From Tamilnaduibacter salinus (lineage in GTDB: Bacteria; Pseudomonadota; Gammaproteobacteria; Pseudomonadales; Oleiphilaceae), in contig NZ_QEKQ01000002.1 in the NCBI RefSeq assembly GCF_003096655.1, positions 62,001-126,000 of the forward strand: a DNA stretch of 64,000 nt. The letters run 5' to 3'. Every line of letters begins with the position of its first letter. Within the stretch, counting starts at the first letter, position 1. Under the pieces are notes generated by a model, which saw only the letters and a list, made by a program, of their open reading frames with translations, made no database searches and was not told the DNA's origin. Both the position numbers and the translations under genes were made by a program. This document shows positions 24,100 to 30,821 of the stretch, piece after piece.

Positions 24100-26862
24100 A
24101 TGCGAGGCACCATCACCCGCCGTCTGCGTGCACTGTTAAAGCCTACCCGCCGCTCTGCCGGAGTGATTGCTGTTCTGGCAATCCTGATCGGCCTGAGCGC
24201 CTGTCGCACCGAGAAACCGGCAGACCAGCCGACGGTCCTCGGGGTTCCGCCGGATGAGGCGTACCTCGGCGTTGAGTACAGCTACAATTTCGGGGCCTTT
24301 GGCGGCGACGATCTGCTCGATTTCTCTCTGACCAACGCGCCACCCTGGCTGGGACTGGAAGCCACCAGCAATAAAGCCCGTCCCGGGATCATTATGCGTG
24401 GTGTGCCCGGCATCACCGGTGGCGCTCGCGGTGATGACGATCTTGGCACGGTCCGGAACATCAATGTCACCACAACGGACGGCGGTCAGGTCGGGGCCCA
24501 GCAGTTTGAAATCACAGTCAATCCGAATCTGCTTTCCGCCAGTGGCGAGAGCATCCGCGAAGGGGAAAGTGCGCAGGACGTTGAAGACGCGGGTGAGGGC
24601 GAGCGTTGTGAGCAACCGGATCTGTCAGGGCGGGGAAGCCATGAGGTGACCTTTGACACGTTCAACGACGATGGCACTCAGTCTGGTACCGAGACGCGCG
24701 CTTACGATACCAACCCGGTTCTGGTGACGGTTGAGCTGACTGAACCGTCCGTCCAGACGAGCAAGATCGCGTTCGAGCTTCGCAGCGACTTTGACCCCGA
24801 CAGTTGCGAGAGTGATGCCAACGCCCAGGAGTGTGAGTTCTCGAACAGCAACCGGGACAAGGCGCAGATTGGCAAGGACGTCGTCCTGCAGGGCAATCAG
24901 CCCGCCTCCAAAGATCAGCTGCCCCAGCCGGATTACGTCGATGTGCTCGACGAGCGATCCGGCGTGCTCACCATTCCGCGGGGCAAAACCGAGTGTTACC
25001 TCCGTCTTGAGCTGGTGGACGATGATTTTCCGGAACCGGCGGAGTCGTTTGAAGTGGCCTTCACGGACGTCCGACAAGGCCTGGTGCATCTCGGTGAAGA
25101 CAACGAGGGGGTCAACCATACCGTCAATATCACTGACAACTCGCCGACGGTTCGCTTTGAAAGCGTGAATGGCCTGGAAACGACCGCGCTGTCACAGGGG
25201 GCGACACGGCAGTATCGGGCCTTTCTGACGCGCAACGGCGGTTCCGTCAATGACACCTTCCGGGTACGGCTCGGTAAAGGAGAAGACAGCAATGCCGGCG
25301 GGGACGACTTCGAATTCCGACAGTGTGACGCCGACGGAACCAATTGTAGCGCGATTGACGAGCTGGTCTTTTCGAAAAGCGCCGATGCCGGACCTGATGA
25401 AAACATCAACCGCCGCGAGTTCTTTATTAAAGCCACGGGCGCGCCGGGTGTGACCGCGGATGACAAGAACCTGATTGTGGCCGTGGACAAGGGTTACCAG
25501 GATGGTCGGCCCGGCTATGTCCGGCTGGGGCAGTCCATGACGGTGTGGCTGAATGCGTTGACAGAGCCCCTGACGGTCGCGGCAGGCGCGACAGATGTTG
25601 CTGTGGCTGACGAGGGGCGCAGTTTCGTGGCCGGACGCTCTGACTCGCCGGCGCAGGGCTGGCTTCAGGTGTTCGACCGCTTTGGGAATGAGGAATCCAT
25701 GCTGACAGTGGATGCCGGCGGTGCGGTCGGTGACCGCGTGGTGGTGACCCAGTCCCAGCGCGACGTGACCGTGGATAACGACACTGAAGAGGTCAACGAA
25801 GTGGCCATTGCCTTCCAGACGGATGGGACCATCGCCGGCGCATCGAATCAGGGCAATACGGATACGGTCATCGCGTTGTTCCGGCGCAACGATGGTGATG
25901 AGGATTACACGTTCGTCTGGGATGTTCAGGTCGGAACGCCGGGGGCGGATGACGTCCGTGACATCCGGATCGGGTCCGGCGGCAGCGTGTTTATCGCCGG
26001 TGAAACAACTGGAACCTGGGGCGGTGAGTCGTCCTCCGGCGGAGAGGACGGGTATCTCCAGCGTATCGACAGCATCGAAGAGGATGGCGGTCCGGAGAAG
26101 GCAAAGGTGGCCTGGACGCGCCAGTACGGCACCGTTGGAGATGATCGGGTGACGGCACTGACGCTTTCGGGGAGTACCGCCCACGCAGTGGGTGCTTCCG
26201 GACAGGCGGGCAATCGAGATTTCGTGTTCGCCAGTGACTCCGGGACCAACGATGGCGCGACGGTGACTCGTGCCGGAACCGCCCGGAATGATCGTGCCGC
26301 TGACGCAACCGCTCTCAATGATCGGTTCTGGCTGGCGGGCACCGGACCGGTCTATACGGTCTCCAGGGACGAAAGCAATACGGCTTCGCTCAGTGCCAGC
26401 GGTGAGAACGACCGGGTATACGGGCTTGTGTTCAACCAGACTGGCAATGTGGACAGCGCAATTGCACTGGATGCGGCTGGCGAAGGAAGCGACGAATCGG
26501 TCGGGAGGCCGGCGCCACTGCAGGATGACATGGTGTTCGCCGGTGTCCGCGGGATTGGCACCGGTGGAGAATCGCTCTGGTTCTCGCGGGTGCGGCGCAA
26601 CCTCACGTCGGAAGAGAAGAACGTCGATGACGACGATGAACTGGAGTCCGTGGACATCCCGTCGCTCGAGTCGATCTGGAATGTGAGTCACGAGCAATCA
26701 GGCGGAATGGCGCTGGGCACGGGCGTTGAAGTGCTGGCCAGCGATGGCTACCAGGCGTCTGAGATTACCGTGCTGATTGAGAGAAATGACGGAAATGGTG
26801 GCACGGAGCAGCGACTGATGCTCTTCAATGGTGATGGCCAGCCGTTGAATCCCGGCCTCTGA
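24100..26862 (+). CDS. Large lipoprotein with Ig-like, Calx-beta-like and propeller-like regions
   Basis: Predicted exported lipoprotein of 920 residues, function unknown. The N terminus has a long basic n-region, a hydrophobic stretch (about 20-33) and a lipobox LSAC with Cys35. Residues about 48-145 resemble a putative-Ig/cadherin-like repeat (PPDEAYLGVEYSYNFGAFGG, APPWLGLEATS). Residues about 180-345 resemble a Calx-beta domain (RGKTECYLRLELVDDDFPEPAESFEV), with a second degenerate copy to about 480. Residues about 490-900 hold repeats of the type GADDVRDIRIGSGGSVFIAGET that recall SBBP/beta-propeller blades. The protein is strongly acidic. It is downstream of ligA and convergent with the CBS gene. 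A role at the cell surface or in adhesion is a guess. Confidence 0.75.
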   Translation: MRGTITRRLRALLKPTRRSAGVIAVLAILIGLSACRTEKPADQPTVLGVPPDEAYLGVEYSYNFGAFGGDDLLDFSLTNAPPWLGLEATSNKARPGIIMRGVPGITGGARGDDDLGTVRNINVTTTDGGQVGAQQFEITVNPNLLSASGESIREGESAQDVEDAGEGERCEQPDLSGRGSHEVTFDTFNDDGTQSGTETRAYDTNPVLVTVELTEPSVQTSKIAFELRSDFDPDSCESDANAQECEFSNSNRDKAQIGKDVVLQGNQPASKDQLPQPDYVDVLDERSGVLTIPRGKTECYLRLELVDDDFPEPAESFEVAFTDVRQGLVHLGEDNEGVNHTVNITDNSPTVRFESVNGLETTALSQGATRQYRAFLTRNGGSVNDTFRVRLGKGEDSNAGGDDFEFRQCDADGTNCSAIDELVFSKSADAGPDENINRREFFIKATGAPGVTADDKNLIVAVDKGYQDGRPGYVRLGQSMTVWLNALTEPLTVAAGATDVAVADEGRSFVAGRSDSPAQGWLQVFDRFGNEESMLTVDAGGAVGDRVVVTQSQRDVTVDNDTEEVNEVAIAFQTDGTIAGASNQGNTDTVIALFRRNDGDEDYTFVWDVQVGTPGADDVRDIRIGSGGSVFIAGETTGTWGGESSSGGEDGYLQRIDSIEEDGGPEKAKVAWTRQYGTVGDDRVTALTLSGSTAHAVGASGQAGNRDFVFASDSGTNDGATVTRAGTARNDRAADATALNDRFWLAGTGPVYTVSRDESNTASLSASGENDRVYGLVFNQTGNVDSAIALDAAGEGSDESVGRPAPLQDDMVFAGVRGIGTGGESLWFSRVRRNLTSEEKNVDDDDELESVDIPSLESIWNVSHEQSGGMALGTGVEVLASDGYQASEITVLIERNDGNGGTEQRLMLFNGDGQPLNPGL

Positions 26863-29445: not shown

Positions 29446-29793
29446 TCCGGCTCCGTCGTTAAGGTGAACGAGTTGGCATTCTCCGGAGGATTGACAAAAT
29501 TTTTGAATCCGCCACTCGTGGTCTGCTGATCATCGTGCTTACATGGGCTGAACGGGATGTTACCAGAGCGCCGTGTCTGGCGCTTCTCGCAACACTGGGA
29601 GAAGTCGCGTTGCGGCCTGTCACCTTGGGAAACACTCCGTGGCGAACTGTTTCTGTACAGGCAGGTTTGGGCGACGCATGCTTTACTGGTTAAAGGGTTC
29701 CTCGAAGCGAGGAGACACCATTGTTTGCTTCCGGAGCCGTGTCGTACCGGAGCCGAGATTCCCAGTCGACATGTGTCCAAAAAGGAGGCAAGG
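29446..29793 (+). other. Intergenic region upstream of the MshEN fusion gene
   Basis: No gene is convincing in this 348-base stretch. An open frame continues upstream of 29794, but it lacks protein-like character and a ribosome-binding site. TTGACA at 29491-29496 has no matching -10. Short hairpins are visible: CTTCTC/GAGAAG (29583-29604) and TCCTCG-AAG-CGAGGA (29699-29713). It could be a structured 5' leader, but I could not match it to a cyclic di-GMP or other known riboswitch. Confidence 0.3.
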
Positions 29794-30525
29794 GTGAAAC
29801 AACATCAGGGGCAGATCGAAAAGTCCCGCCTGGGGCGTTTGCTCGTCAATCGGGGTCTGATTGACGAGGGACAGCTTGAGCAGGCGCTGGCCGAGCAGCA
29901 GGCCGAGGGGATACGCCTGGGGGAGTTGCTGGTGGCCCGGGGTGTCATCAGCGAGCGCGAGCTGTCGCGGGTTCTCAAGCATCAGAGTCGCTACCGGAAT
30001 GCCGCCGCATTTGTCGCGATGTTCACGTTGCCGCTCCAGCCGGTGGTGACGTTTGCAGCGACCGCACCCGCCCCGGCGAACGCCGCAACCCAATCGGCTC
30101 AGATGCTATCAAAACAGGGCTTCACGCCGTTAAGCGAGGACGACCTGTCTGACGTATCGGCCCGGGGCAGCCTGATGGCGCACGTTGACGCTCTGGCCTC
30201 AATGGCTGAGGATGCCGAGACGGGTGAACCAATTGAAGCCGACCCGGTGGAGGGCATTGAACTGGCAGCCCACACGTTTGTTCCCATCCTCAACTTTCTG
30301 GATTCGGATCTCACGATCTCTGGTGTGCATTACCGGGGTGGAGAAGCCGAGTACACGGTGCTTGCTGATGGTGGGCTGCGCATGGCTCTGCCCGAGCGCA
30401 TCGACACGATCTCAATGAACAACATCCGCGTCAGCGGATCACGGGGTGCTTCGCTGGGTAATGTCAGCCTTCACGGCATTCACTTTAGCGAAGGTTCCCA
30501 TGTGACGATTCGGACACGCCCGTAA
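29794..30525 (+). CDS. MshEN (cyclic-di-GMP-binding) domain fused to a membrane segment and an unknown C-terminal domain
   Basis: Unusual 243-residue protein. Residues 12-35 and 41-64 are two 24-residue blocks of the form RLGxxLVxxGxI....L...L..Q separated by a 5-residue spacer, which is the cyclic-di-GMP-binding signature described for MshEN domains of type II secretion/pilus ATPases. Residues about 69-91 are hydrophobic (AAAFVAMFTLPLQPVVTFAA) and followed by Ala/Pro, suggesting a signal anchor. Residues about 110-243 include LSEDDLSDVSARG and a beta-rich end (ISMNNIRVSGSRGASLGNV) recalling small pilus- or surface-associated families, without firm assignment. There is no ATPase domain. GTG at 29794 is chosen because a perfect AAAGGAGG (29781-29788) lies five bases upstream. 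Confidence 0.8.
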   Translation: MKQHQGQIEKSRLGRLLVNRGLIDEGQLEQALAEQQAEGIRLGELLVARGVISERELSRVLKHQSRYRNAAAFVAMFTLPLQPVVTFAATAPAPANAATQSAQMLSKQGFTPLSEDDLSDVSARGSLMAHVDALASMAEDAETGEPIEADPVEGIELAAHTFVPILNFLDSDLTISGVHYRGGEAEYTVLADGGLRMALPERIDTISMNNIRVSGSRGASLGNVSLHGIHFSEGSHVTIRTRP

Positions 30526-30527
30526 AC

Positions 30528-30564
30528 CGGCCCCCCGGCGATCCATCGGGTCGCCGGGGGGCCG
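30528..30564 (+). terminator. Very stable GC hairpin after the MshEN fusion gene
   Basis: GGCCCCCCGGCGA (30529-30541) and its exact reverse complement (30551-30563) form a perfect 13-bp stem, extended by one C-G pair, with a 9-base loop. It begins three bases after the stop codon. There is no T run, so it is either a terminator lacking the U-tract or a 3'-end stabiliser. Confidence 0.55.
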
Positions 30565-30821
30565 TTCATGGCGATTTCGGATTCGGTCAATGGATTGCGA
30601 GCATTTTCTTGCCCCGCTCGCGGGCGTTTGGGCTGTCCCTTCCCTGAAAACCCCCGTTTTTTCGGTCCAACGCTTGTTCATCGACTGCCGCCAACCCTAA
30701 GTGTTGTCTTTGCTTTGCGCCTATCAAAGCCATTCTTTTCGTCGTAAGCGGTAACATTGTTCTGAGACGCCCTTCCGGCGTCCGTGTCATGTTTTGGAGG
30801 CAGGCTTAAAGGAGGGGGTTG

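Follow-up and report, generated by a model that had tools for sequence, protein, structure and literature searches.

The window, that is, the whole 64,000-nucleotide stretch of Tamilnaduibacter salinus DNA that was analysed, carries a gene whose product, judged from its sequence, joins an intact MshEN domain, a cyclic-di-GMP (c-di-GMP) receptor type, to a segment of the signal-peptide type, and this unit is reused as a module on other proteins. We propose, with somewhat more confidence than doubt, that MshEN here lengthens a Sec signal peptide at its N-terminal side, senses c-di-GMP and thereby tunes the export of surface proteins; the effect of c-di-GMP on export, or gating, is what we infer from this arrangement. 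The features of the gene and its surroundings are as follows.

29782–29788, + strand: Shine-Dalgarno-like AAGGAGG, 5 bases 5′ of the GTG at 29794.
29794–30525, + strand: whole gene, GTG start, 243 amino acids, read from its translation and full-length family matches as MshEN, signal peptide, linker, motif and extracytoplasmic domain.
29827–29985, + strand: MshEN (residues 12–64), two c-di-GMP half-sites of 24 residues each, 5 residues apart, from NF053729, the match to 5htl and the contact residues.
29986–30057, + strand: putative Sec signal peptide core (residues 65–88), basic SRYR, a hydrophobic segment with PLQP and TFA before the predicted cut, from the column pattern and the lipoboxes in sister proteins.
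30058–30114, + strand: poorly conserved linker (residues 89–107, mean 0.34) behind the predicted cut.
30130–30168, + strand: LSEDDLSDVSARG motif (residues 113–125), common to the mature start of DUF6160/FilA-type proteins, from hhalign.
30259–30522, + strand: C-terminal domain, predicted to be beta-rich (residues 156–243), whose last ~50 residues are similar to DUF6160 tails.
30528–30564, + strand: strong GC-rich hairpin, 17 bp stem without a T run, directly 3′ of the stop codon.

The pattern of AAGGAGG followed by a start codon occurs a single time across the window, full-length matches to the 243-residue protein were found in many genomes of the family, and a 322-residue open reading frame beginning at 29557 is the gene's own frame, lengthened upstream. 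At the other end, the region 30520–30600 folds with −48.4 kcal/mol (z = −3.8), and the hairpin at 30528–30564, which received no terminator score, is a possible transcript end or stabiliser.

As an earlier note on this DNA had stated, the N-terminal part consists of two 24-residue blocks, RLGRLLVNRGLIDEGQLEQALAEQ (residues 12–35) and RLGELLVARGVISERELSRVLKHQ (residues 41–64), separated by a spacer of 5 residues, and the form RLGxx(L/V/I)(L/V/I)xxG(L/V/I)(L/V/I)xxxxLxxxLxxQ is found twice. The NCBIfam model NF053729 (c-di-GMP_motif) covered residues 12–64 with 64.3 bits (cut-off 38, E = 6.3e-18), with an identical span when the genome was searched, and phmmer recovered Vibrio cholerae MshE (5htl) with E = 5.2e-8; given these scores, the match to MshEN is not due to chance. 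The predicted structure, with a pLDDT of 85–93 across residues 11–60, resembled the four-helix bundle of 5htl with a Foldseek probability of 1.00 and an rmsd of 1.4 over 56 columns (E = 0.025). The contact and turn residues of VcMshE, as given in the available text of the MshE study (PMC5013675), are R9, L10, G11, G18, L25, L29, Q32, R38, L39, G40, G47, L54, L58 and Q61, and all 14 equivalents are present in the window protein (R12, L13, G14, G21, L28, L32, Q35, R41, L42, G43, G50, L57, L61 and Q64). In 43 aligned orthologs R12, G14, L32, L42, G43, L61 and Q64 are invariant, whilst L13, G21 and Q35 are kept in 42, L57 in 41, L28 in 40 and G50 in 38. Arg41, the equivalent of VcMshE Arg38, is R in the window protein and in 28/43 orthologs and is replaced by L, K or M in the remaining 15/43. 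The same text describes XpsE as non-binding and gives eight changes for it (PMC5013675); none of the eight occurs at the equivalent positions of the window protein. Mean column conservation over the 43 orthologs was highest in MshEN (0.73) and the signal segment (0.72) and lowest in the linker (0.34). By these sequence measures, the MshEN domain is intact and non-degenerate, and the window protein presumably binds c-di-GMP, as is reported for its ortholog PA3740.

What follows MshEN is not an ATPase, and the earlier note was right on this point: at E ≤ 1 no Pfam match to an ATPase domain was obtained in the 243-residue protein, and the C-terminal ATPase domain of the type II secretion and type IV pilus ATPases is missing from it. 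Three MshEN matches are present in this genome, the other two inside long frames of 646 and 641 residues. Past Gln64 the sequence continues with SRYR and then NAAAFVAMFTLPLQPVVTFA, with a hydrophobic stretch at approximately residues 69–88. Within the 43 orthologs, R68, A72 and P80 are each fixed (43/43), and around the proposed cut position −3 is A, S, T or G, position −2 is F, L or M and position −1 is A, G or S in 43/43, followed by A or S at +1 in 42/43. Both a basic n-region and small residues at −3 and −1, as in Sec signal peptides of the SPase I type, were thus found. The earlier note had correctly seen a hydrophobic segment here; its description as a signal anchor is less well supported, since the −3/−1 pattern in 43/43 orthologs favours a signal peptide.

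A wider set of 35 non-redundant segments (<70% alike), drawn from 150 unique proteins, was then considered; two loci, one with an ATPase-type continuation (L344) and one without a signal-like segment (L231), were excluded from the segment and cargo counts. Lipoboxes were present in 4/35 segments, with the Cys 22 residues past the last MshEN Gln in all four, and a fifth lipoprotein (L228) has its Cys 19 residues past the MshEN Gln, as counted by hand. A loose −3/−1-compatible site was found in 30/31 non-lipobox segments, a raw proportion with no chance rate computed, and the strict site pattern in 20/31, whereas 2000 shuffles gave 6.2 on average and 14 at most. Kyte-Doolittle hydrophobicity (19-residue windows) reached 1.6 or more in 17/35 segments, with 1.65 for the window segment, and was 1.12–1.47 in seven ordinary DUF6160 signal peptides; this comparison of 35 segments with seven signal peptides did not separate anchors from signal peptides. 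The structural model drew one helix over residues 54–81, with a pLDDT of 74 at 61–70 and of 54 at 71–80 and a pTM of 0.36 for the whole model.

A survey of MshEN fusions, which had been proposed with the earlier note, revealed MshEN plus segment on Ig, DUF547, Beta-lactamase2, lipoprotein, short and chaperone-usher leader proteins. The unit stands before Ig repeats at L086 (Ig_3, E = 4.6e-42) and before DUF547 at L088 (E = 3.6e-24); it is followed by Ig-domain lipoproteins at L087 and L089, by a lipoprotein with a sub-threshold fn3 match at L090, and by proteins that by eye are like these lipoproteins at L091 and L099. At L373:4675-6054, two MshEN stretches and a signal-like segment precede Beta-lactamase2 (E = 4.6e-19). 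At two further loci (L372:1966-6131 and L256:4500-8287), from two families, the MshEN-signal gene adjoins genes for a PapD_N chaperone and a TcfC/CooC_C usher, a gene order of the chaperone-usher operon type in which the MshEN-signal protein is encoded by the leader gene; the cargo parts of these two leader proteins had no Pfam match at 0.1. The 150 unique proteins comprised 133 with the window-type cargo domain (profile E ≤ 1e-3), 9 short proteins ending in alternating hydrophobic residues, 5 with lipoboxes and 3 others; as loci were collected for resemblance to the window protein, these cargo counts are not frequencies. Alternating hydrophobic residues with an aromatic at the end were noted at L208, L217, L219, L223, L235, L236, L098, L289 and L290, and also at L222, L226, L227, L233 and L238; we take such ends of short MshEN-signal proteins to be similar to the outer-membrane beta-signal. 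Four loci (L086, L221, L228 and L373) escaped the sequence patterns and were described separately. Among 20 short-frame regions, 11 that the patterns had missed or covered in part were read by eye. Ten of them, outside the 35-segment and 150-protein counts, showed MshEN and then a signal-like segment (L220, L222, L224–L227, L230, L232, L233 and L238), with further cargos that look short or fn3-like and with L230 ending early; a signal-like segment was absent by eye behind MshEN at L234, and L237 is ATPase-like.

The reverse exchange was also found. Three proteins (L072, L078 and L083) carry the window-type cargo (profile E = 1.4e-23, 3.3e-25 and 4.1e-30, respectively) with no MshEN and with plain signal peptides, the latter read by eye. 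At L078:7562-8977 the two forms stand in tandem, the plain-signal cargo protein immediately preceding its MshEN-bearing relative. Because the MshEN unit is found on unrelated cargos and the window-type cargo is found with plain signal peptides, leader and cargo are, as far as sequence comparison can tell, exchangeable both ways, as export signals behave. Taken together, the −3/−1 pattern, the lipoboxes of sister proteins, the swapping of cargos and the plain signal peptides on cargo relatives favour reading the hydrophobic segment as a cleavable signal peptide that MshEN extends on the cytoplasmic side; cleavage would be expected at the predicted site.

These data bear on three other explanations. 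The protein could be an uncleaved bitopic receptor, with MshEN inside, a type II anchor and a periplasmic domain that shifts state or partner in a LapD-like, inside-out fashion. Such a receptor would have one N-terminal hydrophobic segment, as here, and it would agree with the 17/35 segments of anchor-like hydrophobicity, above the seven ordinary signal peptides, and with the continuous helix of the model, which could carry a signal. We consider it unlikely, given the small-bulky-small residues at −3/−2/−1 in 43/43 orthologs, the lipoboxes in homologous segments, the cargo relatives with plain signal peptides by eye and the linker past the segment, which is the least conserved part (0.34). Of the interpretation in the earlier note, the intact MshEN and the link to exported or surface proteins are supported; signalling across the membrane by an anchor is less well supported.

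A role of MshEN in targeting or docking the precursor at a membrane place or partner, or a cleaved stub that acts alone, would leave export ungated. MshEN elsewhere is the regulatory N-terminus of type IV pilus and type II secretion ATPases, according to the available text of PMC5013675. ATPases that bear it dock in the machineries of pili and of secretion, and several of the cargos are of the pilus or surface type; against this, nothing like the MshEN_C subdomain lies behind MshEN in the window protein and the ligand-contact residues are conserved, and we regard this explanation as distinctly unlikely. Far less probable still is a degenerate pair of N-terminal blocks on an otherwise ordinary exported protein whose leader is unusually long: among the 14 contact or turn residues, seven do not vary and a further six are kept in 38–42 of 43 orthologs, none of the eight changes listed for XpsE in the available text (PMC5013675) is found in the window protein, and PA3740 is reported as a c-di-GMP binder in the accessible parts of two sources (PMC8789108, PMC5013675), although Arg41 varies in 15/43 orthologs and deletion of PA3740 had no biofilm effect in one test (PMC8335546, in part). 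The degenerate GspE relic without contact arginines that the earlier note had named as its own counter-case does not apply, both R12 (43/43) and R41 (28/43) being present. A GspE/PilB relic was rejected, with contact residues intact in the window protein and mostly conserved in orthologs.

As for the cargo, strands were predicted at residues 169–239 in the whole-protein model, and a model of the C-terminal domain reached a pLDDT of ~90 over the strands and a pTM of 0.58. No Pfam or NCBIfam family covers the cargo of the window protein, and PF19657 (DUF6160) did not match the protein at E ≤ 1. Among the orthologs, 6/43 matched DUF6160 at E ≤ 5 (best 2.3e-4) and 1/36 matched the FilA model (0.0028); a DUF6160/FilA match above the curated cut-off was not obtained. 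Profile comparison by hhalign aligned the cargo family with DUF6160 starts at the L..L.D.eM..VsgQg motif (17 columns, 76.8%, E = 2.1e-5) and with DUF6160 tails over the last ~50 residues (49 columns, 91.2%, E = 1e-6), both E values being pairwise and without database correction. The comparison sets, drawn from this and related genomes, were picked, with 17/45 starts and 17/30 tails, the latter of the type ending in YGH or YGR, other tails looking different; two controls against the MshEN profile gave 0.1% each and, MshEN being a helical domain, are weak controls. By sequence comparison, the cargo is similar to DUF6160/FilA-type proteins at both ends. The C-terminal domain had been described in the earlier note as beta-rich, with a LSEDDLSDVSARG motif and unknown; the prediction bears out the strands and the motif is there, and with this likeness the domain is not entirely unknown.

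For the C-terminal fold, neither Foldseek (best E = 0.018 at a probability of 0.25) nor VIA-align (best Z 3.2) gave a useful match. A weak row was the pilus-like 9xfv_A (Z 3.0, 64 aligned residues, rmsd 3.7; profile E = 0.83), which we kept as no more than a hint, because the DUF6160 profile finds the pilus-like filament 9xfv with E = 0.0022 over its whole length, although the best stretch taken singly has 0.31; with a single DUF6160 protein (L181) as query, 9xfv was not found. The likeness to DUF6160, together with the match of the DUF6160 profile to 9xfv, makes a filament- or surface-related cargo plausible. In the DUF6160 proteins at L179–L188 and L345–L371, the end of the L..DD..M..VTGQ motif falls at about the start of the 9xfv chain, so that the motif might signal processing or assembly in a filament family. 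A resemblance of the cargo motif to double-glycine leaders was considered, and sub-threshold 'lipo-invert' (NF058595) rows were left unused.

A Pseudomonas-type ortholog of 225 residues was found in 48/148 genomes of its family at E ≤ 1e-6, in 38 of them full-length. By eye, the gene lies at L239 in the order ffh, rpsP, trmD, rplS, thioesterase, gene, antiporter, and at L242 it is surrounded by xerD-, dsbC- and hom-like genes, which we take to be the order around PA3740 in Pseudomonas aeruginosa PAO1. Where MshEN ends and the segment starts, the peptides of L212 (LAKALKKQTNLR) and L277 (LKKALKKQSNLR) each share 11/12 letters with the PA3740 peptide LKKALKKQTNLR, the putative motif in a review, available in part, which states that peptides of PA3740 bind c-di-GMP (PMC8789108). 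From this shared junction peptide and the PAO1-like gene order, PA3740 is evidently the ortholog of the window protein. The accessible parts of other sources say that PA3740, an MshEN protein, has an identified binding motif (PMC5013675), place the gene among those upregulated in a stringent-response mutant (PMC7122816), list it at −1.35 in an expression table (PMC3174259), label it PilB (PMC9765702), or label it PilZ and report that its deletion in high-c-di-GMP fleS/fleR mutants did not lower biofilm (PMC8335546). In these parts the protein is thus named MshEN, PilB or PilZ, with no mention there of a signal peptide, a cargo or an export role. The claim of a new architecture made in the earlier note is accordingly narrowed: PA3740 was already recorded as an MshEN c-di-GMP binder in the available text of two sources (PMC5013675, PMC8789108), and the fusion to a signal peptide is undescribed in the literature searched.

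To see how widely the protein and the unit occur, searches at several taxonomic levels were compared. The whole protein had matches in 130/163 genomes of the family at E ≤ 1e-5, some of them through MshEN ATPases only, and none in the other 33/163 at that threshold; the C-terminal 143 residues alone were found in 123/163 at E ≤ 0.001. The 75 named loci, collected with one conserved peptide pattern, are mostly from Marinobacter, and others include Hahella, Halospina, Mangrovitalea, Vreelandella and Oleiphilus-type records. Matches to a profile of the unit that extend into the segment (model position ≥86) occurred in at least 34/293 genomes of the order; in the class they were found, among the matches listed, in 5/369, two of them from the same order, and in the phylum in 9/398, again among those listed, 9/9 from the same order. 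The class- and phylum-level searches used E ≤ 1e-15, at which diverged members would be missed. One shorter class-level match (G602) has a signal-like segment by eye. The remaining profile rows mostly end near position 66, in long frames of ATPase size, and some rows in short frames end at 75–82 and are among those then read by eye. Judging by the named relatives, the order that carries the unit is probably Pseudomonadales; its members and a few genomes elsewhere in the class place MshEN plus segment on other envelope and surface proteins as well. No match was found in plasmids at 1e-5 or in PHROGs phage families at 0.01.

The gene stands alone, with no conserved operon partner. mnmC is a neighbour at 73/75 named, 21/23 family and 0/19 order-level loci; cheR and cheV are near it at 66/75, 13/23 and 1/19, and flgA at 66/75, 13/23 and 0/19, respectively. 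Since these neighbours are restricted to the family and almost none is kept at order-level loci, they provide little functional information. A 920-residue lipoprotein-like protein (LSAC, by eye) with no Pfam match is encoded at 24100–26862 of the window, and a relative of it was present in 65/75 named and 11/23 family neighbourhoods.

In the mechanism that we favour, the secretory precursor would carry a Sec signal peptide lengthened N-terminally by a c-di-GMP receptor domain. On leaving the ribosome, MshEN would fold in the cytoplasm at roughly the moment when the signal peptide emerges. According to the model, the last MshEN helix, with Leu57, Leu61 and Gln64 contacting the second guanine, would run directly into the signal peptide; independently of the model, the putative basic n-region SRYR begins immediately past Gln64. 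Binding of c-di-GMP would clamp the four-helix bundle beside the n-region and thereby alter signal recognition, insertion or cleavage, the bound bundle either hindering or helping engagement with SRP, SecA or SecY, with a sign that is not readable from sequence. Export of the cargo would become c-di-GMP-dependent, and a cut after Ala88 would free the cargo, DUF6160/FilA-like in type, for the periplasm or the surface, and the MshEN stub would stay behind. In its general form, as a transferable export switch through which c-di-GMP would decide, precursor by precursor and post-translationally, whether or how fast surface proteins cross the inner membrane, the proposal is tentative and falls a little short of even confidence. 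We put forward just as cautiously the cargos that the switch might serve, namely filament-type proteins, components of chaperone-usher pili, adhesin-like lipoproteins and envelope enzymes.

The domain itself is familiar, and its setting differs from known ones. As far as the available text of two sources goes (PMC5013675, PMC8669469), the MshEN of the window protein has the same 53-residue tandem half-sites as those of MshE, PilB, GspE and NfrB (T2SSE_N), with all contacts; unlike these proteins, it has no ATPase, glycosyltransferase or kinase match and continues instead into a signal-like segment and a domain of exported type. DUF6160/FilA proteins (PF19657, NF050077) resemble the window cargo in the motif close to their mature start and in how they end, whereas the DUF6160 proteins of this genome have, by eye, short signal peptides without MshEN. 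LapD-type receptors link c-di-GMP in the cytoplasm to the cell exterior; unlike LapD, the window protein has no EAL, GGDEF or HAMP match, and its segment looks cleavable. The ESPR of autotransporters (PF13018) likewise lengthens a Sec signal peptide at its N-terminus and is reported to slow the inner-membrane export of some passengers; it has ~25 residues, and no ligand is mentioned for it in the available text (PMC8151025). By analogy, ESPR would be the nearest precedent for tuning of export by an extension, and a Pfam search with the window protein at E ≤ 1 gave no match to it. No description of an MshEN-plus-signal-peptide unit or of its recurrence was recognised in the literature searched, for the most part without subscription papers and supplements, and the supplementary architecture tables of 2016 may list such proteins.

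c-di-GMP acts on transcription, riboswitches, enzymes and secretion machines. If gating were shown, a new control principle would be added to these: with a receptor on every cargo's signal peptide, the export of individual surface proteins would be open to direct, modular and post-translational control. It would also provide a testable role for PA3740, a reported c-di-GMP binder without a biofilm effect in one deletion test, and make a signal peptide under natural ligand control available for use in research. The recurrence of one sensor and tag on unrelated exported proteins suggests a possible control by c-di-GMP, the biofilm messenger, over which proteins are exported.
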